Source: Burkholderiaceae bacterium (GTDB lineage: Bacteria > Pseudomonadota > Gammaproteobacteria > Burkholderiales > Burkholderiaceae_D). From it: a stretch of 64,000 nt of DNA. Within the stretch, counting starts at the first letter, position 1. The number at the start of each line of letters is the position of its first letter. This document shows positions 563 to 8,338 of this stretch, one piece after another. The translations under genes and the position numbers were made by a program. The notes beneath the pieces are model-generated. The model did no database searches, was not told the DNA's origin, and saw only the letters and a program-made list of their open reading frames with translations. The DNA is taken from the NCBI GenBank assembly GCA_019232795.1, contig JAFANH010000010.1:1-64000 (forward strand), read 5' to 3'.

Positions 563-3500
563 TCAATTCAGGTTGGGCGCCAGCCAACGTTCGACATCTT
601 CCTTTGCCACCGCGCGCCGGCGCGCCATGTCTGCCACCTGGTCGTCGCCGATCTTGCCGACGCTGAAGTACTTCGACTCGGGGTGGGCGAAATAGAAGCC
701 TGACACCGAGGCACCGGGCGCCATGGCAAACGATTCGGTCAGTTGCATGCCGATCTCTTCGCACTGCAGCAGCTTGAAGACATCGGCCTTGACCGTGTGC
801 TCTGGGCAAGCCGGGTACCCGGGCGCCGGCCGTATGCCGCGATACGCTTCCTTGATCAGCTCGGCATTGCTCAAGCCTTCGTCGGCCGCATAACCCCACA
901 AGTCCTTGCGCACACGTTCGTGCAGTTGTTCGGCAAAGGCTTCCGCCAGTCGGTCGGCCAACGCCTTCAGCATGATCGAAGAATAGTCGTCGTGCGCGTC
1001 TTCAAAGCGCTTCTCGTGCTTTTCTATGCCTATGCCGGCCGTGACGGCAAACATGCCGATGTAATCGGCAACGCCAGATTCCTTGGGCGCAATGAAGTCC
1101 GACAGACATTGGTTCGGGCGCGCGACGCCGTCAATCACCGGTTTTTCGGTTTGCTGACGCGCACCGTAGTAGGTAAATGCCACTTGCGTACGTGACTCGT
1201 CGGTATAAATCTCGATGTCGTCGCCGACACTATTGGCCGGCAACAGCGCGAGCACGCCGTTGGCGGTCAGCCAGCGGCCTTCGACCAGTTTTTTCAACAG
1301 TTGCTTGCCTTCTTCGTACACCTTGGTGGCCGCCTCGCCCACCACTTCGTCGTTCAGGATGGCCGGAAAAGGTCCGGCCAAATCCCAGGTCTGGAAGAAC
1401 GGCCCCCAGTCCACGTAATCGACCAGCGAGCCCAGATCGGCATTGCGGAATTCGCGGCGGCCGATAAATTTCGGCTTGGCCGGCGCGTGGCGGCCGGTGA
1501 AATCAAGCTTGGTTTTGTTGGCGCGCGCCCGCTCCAAAGTAAGCAGCGGCGTGGCTTTCTTGTTTGCGTGCAGCACGCGCAGGCGTTCGTGATCCGCTGC
1601 CACCTCGGCGACGTATTGCTCGCGCTGTTCCGGCGTCAACAAGGCTTGCGCCACCGACACCGAACGCGACGCATCCGGCACGTACACCACCGGGCCTTCG
1701 TAATTGTTGGCGATCTTCACCGCGGTGTGGGCGCGGCTGGTCGTTGCGCCACCGATCAAGAGCGGGATCTTGAGCATGCGGAAATGCGGGTCGCGCTGCA
1801 TTTCCTTCGCCACGTGTGCCATCTCTTCGAGCGAAGGCGTGATCAAGCCCGACAGACCGACGATGTCGGCGTTCTCGGCCTTGGCTTTCGCCAGGATTTC
1901 CGAGCACGGCACCATCACGCCCATGTTGACCACTTCAAAGTTATTGCATTGCAAGACCACCGACACGATGTTCTTGCCAATGTCGTGCACGTCGCCCTTG
2001 ACGGTCGCGATCACGATCTTGCCCTTGGGTTTGGCGACAATGCCGGTGCGCGCCTCTTCCTGCTTCTTTTCTTCCTCGATGAAAGGAATCAAGTGCGCCA
2101 CCGCCTGTTTCATCACGCGCGCCGACTTCACCACCTGCGGCAGGAACATCTTGCCTTGGCCGAACAGGTCGCCGACGATGTTCATGCCATCCATCAGCGG
2201 ACCTTCGATCACCTGGATAGGCCGGCCGCCGGCTTGCAGCAATTCCTGGCGCGCTTCCTCGGTATCTTCGACTATCCATTGCGTGATACCGTGCACCAGT
2301 GCATGCGCCAGGCGCTTGGACACCGGCGCATTGCGCCATTCCAGGCTTTGTTCTTCCTTTTTTCCGCCAGCCTTCATGCTGCCGGCGAATTCAATCATGC
2401 GTTCGGTGGCGTCAGGCCGGCGGTTCAGCACCACGTCTTCGACCCGTTCGCGCAAATCCTCGGACAGTTCGCTGTACACGCCGACCATGCCGGCGTTGAC
2501 GATGCCCATCGTCAGGCCGGCCTTGATGGCGTGATACAGGAATACAGTGTGAATCGCCTCGCGCGCCGGATCATTGCCACGGAAGCTGAAGCTGACGTTG
2601 GAGACGCCGCCGCTGATCTTTGCGTGCGGCAGGTTTTGCTTGATCCAGCGCGTCGCTTCGATGAAATCGACGGCGTAGTTGTTGTGCTCCTCGATACCGG
2701 TCGCAATCGCGAAAATATTGGGATCGAAGATGATGTCTTCCGGCGGAAAGCCGATTTGCTCGACCAGCAGCTTGTAGGCGCGCGCGCAAATTTCAGTCTT
2801 GCGCGCAAACGTGTCGGCCTGCCCCTGCTCGTCGAAGGCCATCACGATCACGGCTGCGCCGTAACGGCGGCACAGCTTGGCCTGGCGCAGGAATTCAGCC
2901 TCGCCTTCCTTCATCGAAATCGAGTTGACGACGGCCTTGCCCTGCACGCATTTCAAGCCTGCTTCCAGCACCGACCATTTCGACGAGTCGATCATGATGG
3001 GTACGCGCGCAATATCGGGTTCGGACGCGATCAGATTCAGGAAGCGCGTCATGGCGGCCACCGAATCGAGCATCGCCTCGTCCATGTTGATGTCGATGAC
3101 TTGCGCGCCGTTCTCCACCTGCTGGCGCGCCACCGACAGCGCTTCGTCGTATTGCTCATTCAGGATCAGGCGCGCAAAAGCCTTGGATCCGGTCACATTG
3201 GTGCGCTCGCCGACGTTGACGAACAGCGAAGCGTCGTCAATCGTAAACGGCTCCAAGCCGGACAGGCGCATGGCGGTCGGAATCTCGGGAATCTTGCGCG
3301 GGGCAATCTTGCTCACCGTCTCGGCAATCGCCCGAATATGAGACGGCGTGGTACCGCAACAGCCGCCGGCGATATTGACGAAGCCGCTCTCGGCAAATTC
3401 CTTGAGCAGCGAAGCCGTGATATCCGGCGTTTCATCGAAGCCGGTGTCCGACATCGGGTTGGGCAGGCCGGCGTTCGGGTAAATACAGACATAGGTGTCG

Positions 3501-4318
3501 GCTATCGCGGCCAACTCTTCCGCGTAAGGGCGCATCAGCGCCGCGCCGAGCGCGCAGTTGAGACCGACCGTCAGCGGCTTGGCGTGGCGCACGGAGTTCC
3601 AGAACGCCGGCACGGTCTGGCCGGACAGGATGCGGCCCGAAGCATCGGTGACCGTGCCCGAGATCATGATGGGCAGCCGCTTGCCCGATTCTTCGAAGAA
3701 AGCGTCGATGGCAAACAGCGCCGCCTTGCAGTTGAGCGTGTCGAAAATCGTTTCCACCAGCAGCACGTCTGCGCCGCCTTCGACCAGGGCGCGCGTCTGC
3801 TCCAGGTAGGCGGCCACGAGCTGGTCGAACGTGACGTTACGCGCGGCCGGGTCATTGACGTCGGGAGAAATCGAGGCCGTCTTCGGCGTCGGTCCCAGCG
3901 CGCCGCACACGAAACGCGGCTTATCCGCCGTCGCATACTTGTCGCAGGCGGCGCGCGCCAGCCGTGCCGCCTGCAGGTTCATTTCATAGACCAGATGGCC
4001 CATGTGGTAATCGTCCTGCGCAACCGTGGTGGCGCCGAAAGTGTTGGTTTCGACCATGTCGGCGCCGGCCGCCAGGTATTTCTCGTGGATTTCGCTGATG
4101 ATGTGCGGCTGCGTCAACGTCAGCAATTCATTGTTGCCTTTGACGAACACCTCCTTGCTCGGCACCGCAAAGTCGGCGAAGCGCGTGCCGCGATAGTCTT
4201 CCTCGGTCAGCTTGTATTGCTGGATCATGGTGCCCATGGCGCCGTCCAAGACCAGGATGCGGCGCGCCAGCAGGTCGCGCAATATCGTTTCGGTTGGGGA
4301 AATGGCGTCGCGTTTCAT
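563..4318 (-). CDS. metH: Cobalamin-dependent methionine synthase
   Basis: The enzyme transfers the methyl group of 5-methyltetrahydrofolate via methylcobalamin to homocysteine, in the cytoplasm. It has about 1251 residues, the usual full MetH length. Domains run in order: an N-terminal homocysteine-binding barrel ending in the zinc-ligand stretch [11 protein letters not shown], a pterin-binding domain, a B12-binding module with DVHDIG (cobalt-ligating His778), and a C-terminal activation domain with the SAM-binding stretch [13 protein letters not shown] chose the start at MKRDAISP because an in-frame upstream start would place 11 unconserved residues inside the leader. The gene is transcribed alone, downstream of a structured leader with a terminator-like hairpin. 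It is one of the B12-linked genes in this window, together with the BtuF-like protein at 62.5 kb and a B12-binding radical SAM protein. Confidence 0.97.
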
Positions 4319-4352
4319 AAGGCACTCGTTCTTTTCTAATCCACAAAGCAAA

Positions 4353-4384
4353 AAACCCGGTCTGCCAAAAACGGGACCGGGTTT
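4353..4384 (-). terminator. Intrinsic terminator-like hairpin in the metH leader (possible attenuator)
   Basis: AAACCCGGTC and GACCGGGTTT form a 10-bp stem with a 12-base loop. On the minus strand it is followed by a run of six T. It ends about 32 bases upstream of the metH ATG, so it reads as an intrinsic terminator inside the metH 5' leader. An alternative is that it terminates the upstream ars operon, whose last gene ends about 260 bases earlier. Confidence 0.6.
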
Positions 4385-4410
4385 GCATCTCCGCTTTAGC
4401 AGTATTTATA

Positions 4411-4471
4411 GAGGTTCGGTCGGAACCGGATCCAAAGCGGATCCAAAGGGGGTAAATCTGGACCAAACCTC
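4411..4471 (-). promoter_or_regulatory. Structured RNA element upstream of metH
   Basis: Written on the minus strand, GAGGTTTGGTC (4471-4461) pairs with GACCGAACCTC (4421-4411) over 11 positions with one G-U pair. Inside it, two GGATCC palindromes (4439-4444 and 4428-4433) flank GCTTT and form a small hairpin. The fold sits directly before the terminator-like hairpin. I did not recognise it as a SAH, SAM or cobalamin riboswitch. The remainder of 4472-4646 is AT-richer and shows only short repeats (AATAGGTG/CACCTATT around the aqpS stop). Confidence 0.45.
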
Positions 4472-4646
4472 GGCGCCCGCAAGCTGGGTTTGACTGGTTC
4501 AATCAAATCGGCGCAAAAAAATTATACGGGAAATCGGCTGATGGCACCAAATCCGCATTTGCCACACTGCATACAAGATAAATTACCTAAATAGCAACGG
4601 CCTGTAGATAAATAGGTGTTCCAAATATCCGCCACCTATGCGCCAC

Positions 4647-5327
4647 CTATTCAGTGACCTTGGCTTGAGTAGAAGATGTGGGAAGCAACCAGCCAAACAA
4701 GAGCGTGGCCGCGACAGTCCCCAGGAGCTGCGCCACGATAAACCCACCCACGTCTTCCGGCCGAATACCGGCAAAGGTATTGCTCGCTGCGCGCGCCAGC
4801 GTGACGGCCGGATTGGCGAACGAGGTCGACGCCGTGAACCAGTATGCCGCCGTGATGTATAGCGCCACGGCAAACGGCGTCACACCCGGTCGGCTGCGCG
4901 AGCAACTGATAATCGTTGCCACCAGGCCGAATGTCGCGATGAACTCGCTCCACCATTGCGCACCACCTGAGCGCACGTGTGCCGAAGCGACAAACAGCGG
5001 CTCGCCAAACATCAGATGCGCTGCGGCGACGCCGGCAAAAGCGCCGGCCAGCTGGGAGGCAAGATACGGCAGGACTTCCCTTGCCGGCAAATTTTTCCGC
5101 CAGGCCTCGGACAGCGTCACGACAGGATTGAAGTGCGCGCCGGAGATCGGACCGAACATCAGAATCAATACAGCCAGGCCGCAACCGGTCGCGACGGCAT
5201 TGGCCAACAAGGCGATCGCGACATTGCCGCCGGCCAGACGCTCGCCCATGATGCCGGAACCGACCACCACGGCCAACAGCAACGCCGTGCCGAGCGCTTC
5301 AGACACAGTACGCCGCGCGCGCGTCAT
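4647..5327 (-). CDS. aqpS: Aquaporin-type channel of the arsenic operon (AqpS-like)
   Basis: This is a 226-residue inner-membrane MIP-family channel with six hydrophobic segments. The first pore box is HFNPVVT (NPV at 67-69 instead of NPA). The second is SFANPAVTL (NPA at 172-174), followed by Val where water channels carry the selectivity-filter Arg. From memory, the arsenite-conducting AqpS of Sinorhizobium meliloti has the same kind of Arg-to-Val change. Its ATG overlaps the arsC stop by ATGA, so translation is probably coupled. The inferred role is passive exit of arsenite made by ArsC. A generic water or glycerol channel is less likely given this operon. Confidence 0.88.
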   Translation of the reverse strand: MTRARRTVSEALGTALLLAVVVGSGIMGERLAGGNVAIALLANAVATGCGLAVLILMFGPISGAHFNPVVTLSEAWRKNLPAREVLPYLASQLAGAFAGVAAAHLMFGEPLFVASAHVRSGGAQWWSEFIATFGLVATIISCSRSRPGVTPFAVALYITAAYWFTASTSFANPAVTLARAASNTFAGIRPEDVGGFIVAQLLGTVAATLLFGWLLPTSSTQAKVTE

Positions 5328-8211: not shown

Positions 8212-8227
8212 ACCTGGGCAAAAAAAA

Positions 8228-8249
8228 AGCCCACCGCGGACGGTGGGCT
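8228..8249 (-). terminator. Intrinsic terminator oriented on the minus strand
   Basis: AGCCCACCG (8228-8236) and CGGTGGGCT (8241-8249) form a perfect 9-bp stem with a CGGA loop. On the minus strand it is followed by a run of nine T. On the plus strand there is no T tract, so it is a poor terminator for the metal operon that ends at 8211. Confidence 0.75.
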
Positions 8250-8338
8250 GAATCCATATCACTTTGGAAGACATGGAGGAGACAGGTGCAACTATATCCA
8301 CCCTCCAGATATAAGGCCAATTTCGTTTTCATATACCG

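Follow-up and report, generated by a model that had tools for sequence, protein, structure and literature searches.

The leader of metH in the window (the whole stretch of 64,000 nucleotides analysed here) is very probably a SAM riboswitch of the SAM-II type that works as a transcriptional OFF switch; we regard the class as very likely and the mechanism as likely. The element spans about 4514 to 4350 on the minus strand, between a MIP-channel-like gene that ends at 4647 on the same strand and metH, whose ATG has its A at 4318. The same-strand genes upstream resemble a MIP-family channel gene and arsC, both below the NCBIfam cut-offs. Comparison with related leaders supports the boundaries of the element, the pseudoknot, the identity of the pocket, the inserted hairpin P3, the terminator and the gene context, and we infer the ligand, the start site, the direction of control, the antiterminator and the role of a hairpin in loop 1. 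The features assigned are as follows.

563-4318, minus strand: metH, cobalamin-dependent methionine synthase (NF007024, 2127.1 bits, cut-off 1497; TIGR02082, 1719.6 bits, cut-off 1010.85)
4350-4384, minus strand: intrinsic terminator, stem 4384-4375/4362-4353 plus T6 at 4355-4350 (-17.7 kcal/mol)
4363-4401, minus strand: candidate antiterminator, TGCTAAAGCGG (4401-4391) with CCGTTTTTGGCA (4374-4363), from the nascent-RNA fold of the window
4391-4409, minus strand: A-rich strand and P2 3' strand, ATAAATACTGCTAAAGCGG, with GCTAAA as G42-A47 (alignments A2 and A3)
4411-4471, minus strand: P3, an inserted hairpin made of an 11-bp helix and an inner GGATCC hairpin; a variable insert at the same place as P3 of SAM-V
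4473-4477, minus strand: P1 3' strand, GGCGC (A3 pairing)
4479-4487, minus strand: P2 (pseudoknot) 5' strand, CC(A)GCTTGC, with TTGC as U20 U21 G22 C23 (A3 pairing and pocket letters)
4489-4507, minus strand: loop-1 hairpin, UUUGAUUG/CAGUCAAA, which would cover the 5' pocket strand in the ligand-free state
4503-4509, minus strand: 5' pocket strand, GATTTGA, with UUU as U10-U12 and G as G8 of the SAM-II structure
4510-4514, minus strand: P1 5' strand, GCGCC (alignments A2 and A3)
4521-4526, minus strand: TATAAT, the probable -10 box (exact TATAAT before P1 in relatives)

Leader hairpins and the element shared by relatives

The initial annotation had proposed a possible undescribed cis-regulatory RNA at 4353-4471, built from two hairpins, and both were found on the minus strand where it had placed them. 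One is an 11-bp helix with a single G-U pair (GAGGTTTGGTC, 4471-4461, with GACCGAACCTC, 4421-4411) that encloses a GGATCC/GGATCC hairpin; the other is a perfect 10-bp stem (AAACCCGGTC, 4384-4375, with GACCGGGTTT, 4362-4353) with a T6 tract (4355-4350), three bases of which lie inside the stem, 31 nt from the ATG of metH. The region 4345-4475 folded more stably than its shuffles (z = -4.60; as good in 0 of 200), as did 4319-4500 (z = -2.77; as good in 2 of 200). A generic terminator scan and a consensus promoter scan of 4200-4700 each returned no sites, the former probably because it accepts loops of at most 8 nt and the loop here has 12 nt. The proposed layout, a structured domain and then a terminator before metH, stands, and the leader is very probably a cis-regulatory RNA. 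The coordinates of the annotation placed the hairpins correctly and left out the 5' half of the aptamer (P1 and loop 1, 4514-4472), so that the conserved part begins 43 nt upstream of the annotated stretch. Nor does the RNA appear to be of an undescribed kind, its aptamer being very likely a SAM-II-type pseudoknot. This type could not be recognised from 4353-4471, because the helix chosen there belongs to the variable insert and the annotated stretch does not reach the 5' half of the pocket. An attenuator centred on the 11-bp helix was rejected, since that helix falls in the part that varies among relatives.

In a DNA search of two congeners, one matched (73%) from window position 4535 through to the query's end, and the other matched in two blocks (4535-4460 and 4409-4345), between which the stretch of the 11-bp helix was unmatched; neither had a DNA match upstream of 4535. 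There were 113 genomes of the family with a metH match, and the leaders of 70 were examined. A shared pattern was found in 48 of the 70 (47 by a first script and one more, with a 146-nt insert, by a second), and it reads TATAAT (nearly always), GCGCCGATTTGA, a loop, TTGCGGGCGC, an insert, AAATNCNGCTAAA, the terminator and metH. An additional 80 named metH loci were examined, and 19 have the element; the named relatives that carry it include Noviherbaspirillum (among them Noviherbaspirillum autotrophicum), Undibacterium and Oxalicibacterium, and it was not seen in the Herbaspirillum, Janthinobacterium, Massilia and Duganella loci among these 80. Of the 61 named loci that lack the pattern, 20 were scanned for a known Rfam element in place of the aptamer, with 0 matches at the gathering threshold. 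Each set of identical cores, leaders, terminators or inserts entered the counts once.

In the remaining 22 of the 70 family leaders the aptamer was not found, and a terminator is kept in some of them. TATAAT followed 21-25 nt later by a terminator-like hairpin was seen in the aptamer-less metH leaders of loci L070, L074, L078, L082, L084 and L088, and likewise in L163, L170 (Herminiimonas) and L167 (Herbaspirillum). The hairpins of such leaders mostly have an ACCCGG-type arm, and these leaders seem to be attenuators that have lost their sensor or use another.

The pseudoknot aptamer, its pocket and the downstream genes

Of 60 distinct metH leaders with the aptamer, 58 have an exact TATAAT at most 45 nt upstream of P1, compared to 1.6% of shuffled upstream stretches, and transcription would be expected to start at about the first base of P1 (~4514). 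The H-type pseudoknot of P1 and P2 that characterises SAM-II was recovered on alignment A3 (87 distinct rows), in which 95.6% of 1,100 P1 and P2 cells are paired, compared to 28-46% with the partners slid. Changes on both sides of a pair occur in 33 cells of A3, compared to 2.8 +/- 1.9 in shuffles (0 of 500 as high), a test that ignores common descent; the signal from further pair types was weaker (11 compared to 9.0; 26 of 500 shuffles as high). All P1 cells pair and three of the five pairs show changes on both sides, counts that lean towards P1, as A3 was aligned to a model that holds P1 and not P2. Most of the covariation comes from the outer P2 pair (CG 24, UA 18, UG 15, GC 4, AU 3, other 17), and the four innermost P2 pairs are invariant and thus uninformative in this respect. 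The covariation that the initial annotation had named as a check is thus seen for P1 and P2 in the wide set A3, and P3 persists as a hairpin while its sequence changes; among 30 family metH leaders alone, P1 and P2 had 0 changes on both sides.

In the available part of one structural account, the SAM-II pocket comprises 13 positions listed as fully conserved (U10-12, U20-C23 and G42-A47), and SAM is contacted by U11, U21, G22, U44 and A47 (PMC3764141). All 13, together with G8 and A9, which we added to this list, are present in the window and occur together in 83 of the 87 distinct A3 rows, positions having been assigned by matching letter blocks and not against the 2QWY sequence. The SAM-contacting sites are thus kept in the window, and each site of the 5' pocket strand is kept in 84-86 of the 87 rows. 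Pocket identity among the family leaders was 58 of 58, partly by construction, as the search pattern allowed 1-2 mismatches per block. On these comparisons, the assignment to the SAM-II type is strong and SAM is very probably the ligand of the metH leader RNA.

A covariance model, R1, was made from 30 metH leaders with P1 as its sole structure, and its E-values are rough owing to a short calibration. R1 matched 144 of 200 genomes of the order, taken to be Burkholderiales from the names of the relatives, at E <= 0.01 and 34 of 249 genomes of the phylum at E <= 0.05, a few matched genomes having supplied training rows; in the order, 30 loci were examined among the matches listed. In the genome of the window, the metH leader alone was significant (next E 0.49). 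The genes behind 90 matches (89 of A3 and L108), part of whose metH loci had been included deliberately, were metH in 23, metX in 19, metZ in 15, metN in 3 and metK in 1; 16 were unclassified and 13 had no ORF in short flanking DNA. By NCBIfam, the metZ, metX and metK seeds scored above the cut-off, and the metN seed and a shortened metH seed below it. The genes that could be identified behind the element belong to methionine or SAM metabolism.

Several other loci with matches had features of their own. In L150 (1557-1394, minus strand) and L147 (1501-1675, plus strand), a full SAM-II-type element is followed 46 and 60 nt downstream, respectively, by a weaker or partial match (17.4 and 20.6 bits), possibly as tandem elements, and L150 has a terminator-like hairpin between its two matches. 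L135 carries two full elements about 1 kb apart (474-542 and 1501-1568, plus strand), with no recognised methionine gene behind either in the flanking DNA examined. R1 matches in L253, L254, L256, L260 and L261 have an insert at the place of P3. Behind the element of L253, L254, L260 and L261 lies a short ORF of 102-123 aa that is not a known methionine gene; that of L261, a locus that also carries the Rfam Pseudomonas RNA P11, has a weak match to Methyltransf_11 (E 0.052, below the cut-off). Targets outside metX, metZ and metH were a threonine ammonia-lyase gene in L138 (1557-1501, minus strand; TIGR01127 above the cut-off) and metK in L259 (1555-1501, minus strand; TIGR01034 above the cut-off).

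Known riboswitch models did not match the window, in line with the earlier remark that no SAH, SAM or cobalamin features could be recognised. RF00521 (SAM_alpha; cut-off 36 bits) and every other SAM riboswitch model gave no match in the window leader even at E <= 10, and SAH and cobalamin riboswitches gave none at gathering in the 64 kb and none at E <= 10 in 4250-4660; the SAH, cobalamin, SAM-I and SAM-V identities were rejected on this ground. The SAM-V model, which we take to be RF01826, was absent among the matches at E <= 10 in the window leader and in 20 relatives. The long-loop SAM-II model RF01726 (cut-off 44 bits) had no match in the window genome and reached its cut-off in 0 of 40 family genomes, and this identity is unsupported. 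Among 20 element-bearing family metH leaders, RF00521 matched four (27.4-32.4 bits, none over the cut-off), all of them compact and without P3. In 40 family genomes it passed the cut-off twice, before metZ and metX (loci L105 and L106; score 40.6). Sub-threshold RF00521 matches lie just upstream of metH in genomes G037 (35.8 bits), G034 (32.4), G012 (32.2) and G038 (24.8), and P3-bearing leaders score lower (G027, 19.0 bits; G018, 15.8 bits). From the phylum, 20 R1 loci were compared with RF00521, and 10 coincide with its matches (27.7-36.2 bits, one above 36) and 10 do not. At the level of sequence, the link of the window RNA to the SAM-II class runs through its compact relatives, and the inserts at P3 and loop 1 probably explain why the SAM_alpha model misses the window. 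The same scans placed a Betaproteobacteria toxic small RNA (RF02278, 59.5 bits) at 8221-8284 on the minus strand of the window; in 4 of 20 loci scanned (L065, L071, L075 and L094), RF02278 was also found ahead of the metH element and in the orientation of metH, as if it were the terminator of the neighbouring gene.

Termination and competing pairings

Terminator-like hairpins, defined as a stem of at least 5 bp with at least three G-C pairs before TTTT, follow the aptamer in 53 of 53 distinct aptamer-bearing leaders. The survey skipped leaders that had neither the pattern nor an exact TATAAT in their last 220 nt, and of the 66 pattern-less leaders kept, 46 have no terminator. With a folding program that does not predict pseudoknots, the window RNA ending at the terminator loop was predicted to fold into P1, P3 and the loop-1 hairpin while UGCUAAAGCGG pairs with the loop region of the terminator, and once the 3' arm was included, the predicted fold was the terminator. 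This candidate antiterminator was predicted in 38 of 58 leaders, compared to 15.7% when the terminator 5' arm and loop were shuffled, and it was not predicted in the other 20; for the window itself, it also appeared in 6 of 20 shuffles. A complementarity score of at least 5 to CTAAAGCGGA was reached by 40 of 53 terminators behind aptamers, compared to 4 of 20 terminators of pattern-less leaders, with p-values that overstate the difference, the leaders being related. An earlier count, of uninterrupted helices, was mixed, with p <= 0.05 in 15 of the 41 leaders tested, and it left out 17 of the 58, in which the automatic terminator call ran into the tail; a stricter definition of the terminator was used for the counts above.

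We propose that transcription would start at about 4514, and that P1 (4514-4510/4477-4473), the pseudoknot P2 (4487-4479/4400-4391) and the GAUUU strand in the groove of P2 would together form the SAM pocket. Without SAM, the loop-1 hairpin would mask GAUUU, and the 3' pocket strand UGCUAAAGCGG would pair with the terminator loop (CCGUUUUUGGCA), so that polymerase reads into metH. With SAM, P2 would capture the 3' pocket strand, the terminator (4384-4353) would form and transcription would stop before metH. The 3' pocket strand would thus pair either with the 5' arm and loop of the terminator or with P2; as the antiterminator competes with P2 for this strand, bound SAM would be expected to promote termination, as in an OFF switch.

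The same aptamer and ligand might also drive a different switch, in which the terminator 5' arm pairs, without SAM, with the P1 3' strand and the P3 5' arm. For nascent RNA truncated right after the terminator 5' arm, this is the predicted partner in many leaders, the window itself pairing 18 of 23 nt in this way; several nascent folds favour P1/P3 partners over the P2 3' strand, and the available text of Leyn 2014 speculates that GC-rich regions 3 and 4 contact the terminator stem (PMC4239095). However, the partner test used an over-extended 5' arm in many leaders, and the window RNA extended through the loop prefers the antiterminator with the P2 3' strand, P1 and P3 remaining intact. Terminators also still follow in those surveyed of the seven distinct leaders that lack P3, and we consider this other switch unlikely. 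It is far less probable that the pocket has drifted to another ligand, such as SAH or a polyamine; a spermidine riboswitch whose sensor is a close variant of a SAM aptamer has been published (PMC10853860, as far as its available part goes), but all five SAM-contacting nucleotides are kept here, and the identified downstream genes belong to methionine or SAM metabolism.

A hairpin that merely terminates the upstream ars/aquaporin transcript, with a leader that does not regulate metH, is very improbable as well. Such a terminator would also stop read-through from the MIP-family-channel-like and arsC-like genes, yet the TATAAT kept in 58 of 60 leaders lies between the ars-side genes and the element, the element stands before metH in 48 of 70 family leaders, and the similarity to the two congeners begins only at 4535; the initial annotation had named this outcome as one that would speak against regulation of metH, and it is disfavoured. 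Least credible is an independent small RNA of the anti-hemB type. RF02837 does match weakly over 4462-4347 (19.4 bits, E 0.031), a score far under its cut-off of 49.5, and of 14 control genomes, 9 also have matches to the model at E <= 1, with 0 reaching the cut-off, so that weak scores carry little weight; this candidate was rejected. The SAM-II-type OFF switch remains the preferred reading of the leader.

P3, loop 1 and the relation to SAM-II and SAM-V

The insert between P1 and the A-rich strand ranges from 5 to 146 nt across metH leaders and is variable in sequence. For 46 distinct inserts of at least 10 nt, the mean folding z was -2.6, with 26 of 46 at p <= 0.05 (mononucleotide shuffles). 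When halves were swapped among 45 inserts, the mean energy was -8.8 kcal/mol for own halves compared to -5.2 kcal/mol for swapped ones (Wilcoxon p = 5e-6, relatedness ignored), and many short P3s pair no better than swapped halves. P3 is missing from seven distinct leaders, in which the insert is 5-6 nt long. In metX and metZ elements of other families, an insert at this place is present in some and absent in many, so that P3 would be an optional hairpin that spaces P1 from the A-rich strand. Of 43 family metH leaders with a long loop 1, 41 have UUUGA paired in the predicted fold (33 of 35 distinct), compared to 25% when shuffled, and 15 further family leaders have a short loop 1; the modelled loop-1 hairpin would compete for the GAUUU strand.

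SAM-II was defined with few occurrences outside the alpha-proteobacteria, Bordetella bronchiseptica being named in a figure legend, and an OFF switch was proposed for it in the same work (Corbino 2005, PMC1273637, available part). The metH leader resembles this metA element (SAM_alpha, RF00521; PMC1273637) in the P1 and P2 pseudoknot and the pocket nucleotides, in a promoter a few nt before P1, in a terminator before a methionine gene and in the OFF logic expected; it differs in P3, the loop-1 hairpin, metH as target and the lack of a window match to RF00521 at E <= 10. As described in the part of PMC6061858 available, SAM-II has no P3 between P1 and the A-rich strand, while in SAM-V a stem-loop P3 leaves the 3' end of P1 and is followed by the stacked A strand. 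The window and most element-bearing family metH leaders do have P3, and it is for this reason that we file the metH leader RNA as a SAM-II variant. Compared to SAM-V as portrayed there, the pocket and topology are very similar and P3 directly follows the P1 3' strand in both; SAM-V is, however, translational with a 2-bp P2a, whereas the metH leader has a terminator and no SAM_V match. The variant RF01726, by its name a SAM-II with enlarged loops, is listed for Bacteroidetes and marine samples in the excerpt at hand (PMC2864571), unlike the metH leader element.

In the available portion of Leyn 2014 (PMC4239095), SAM_alpha is confined to Rhizobiales and Rhodobacterales, metH of Comamonadaceae is placed under a SAH riboswitch, and a metXZ element that combines a pseudoknot with a terminator is described separately for beta-proteobacteria. 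That element likewise occupies beta-proteobacterial metX and metZ leaders, with a pseudoknot formed from four of six conserved regions and a terminator behind; in that portion it is not called SAM-II, and metX and metZ are named, not metH. Judged by topology, genes and clade, and not by sequence, it probably belongs to the same RNA family as the metH leader element. SAM-II switches with terminators in beta-proteobacteria have already been published, and the mechanism of the terminator type was called not experimentally established in 2007 (PMC2258182); the metA and metZ SAM-II switches of Sinorhizobium meliloti have since been studied experimentally, with a predicted mechanism for metZ (2022; PMC9373788, available part). 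Among top-ranked results in the open-licence literature, we found no paper on a SAM-II switch of beta-proteobacterial metH.

It is conceivable, although we hold it with somewhat less than even confidence, that the metH leaders of the family form a subclass between SAM-II and SAM-V, in which the SAM-II pocket and terminator would be combined with a SAM-V-type P3 and the unliganded state would be gated twice. The loop-1 hairpin would mask GAUUU and the antiterminator would mask GCUAAA, so that SAM must win both strands. If true, metH would through this double gate become a transcriptional switch under kinetic control, and the subclass would show how SAM-II and SAM-V grade into each other.

Overall, the metH leader is very likely a SAM-II-type structural variant missed by Rfam, whose SAM_alpha model rarely passes its cut-off here (0 of 20 metH leaders, 2 of 40 family genomes and 1 of 20 R1 loci). 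The variant would add metH to the targets of SAM-II-type control, its P3 insert blurs the stated difference between SAM-II and SAM-V, and the leaders compared here offer a candidate antiterminator for SAM-II switches of the terminator type. Together with the R1 matches across the order, these results suggest that SAM-II-type control is widespread among methionine genes of the order.
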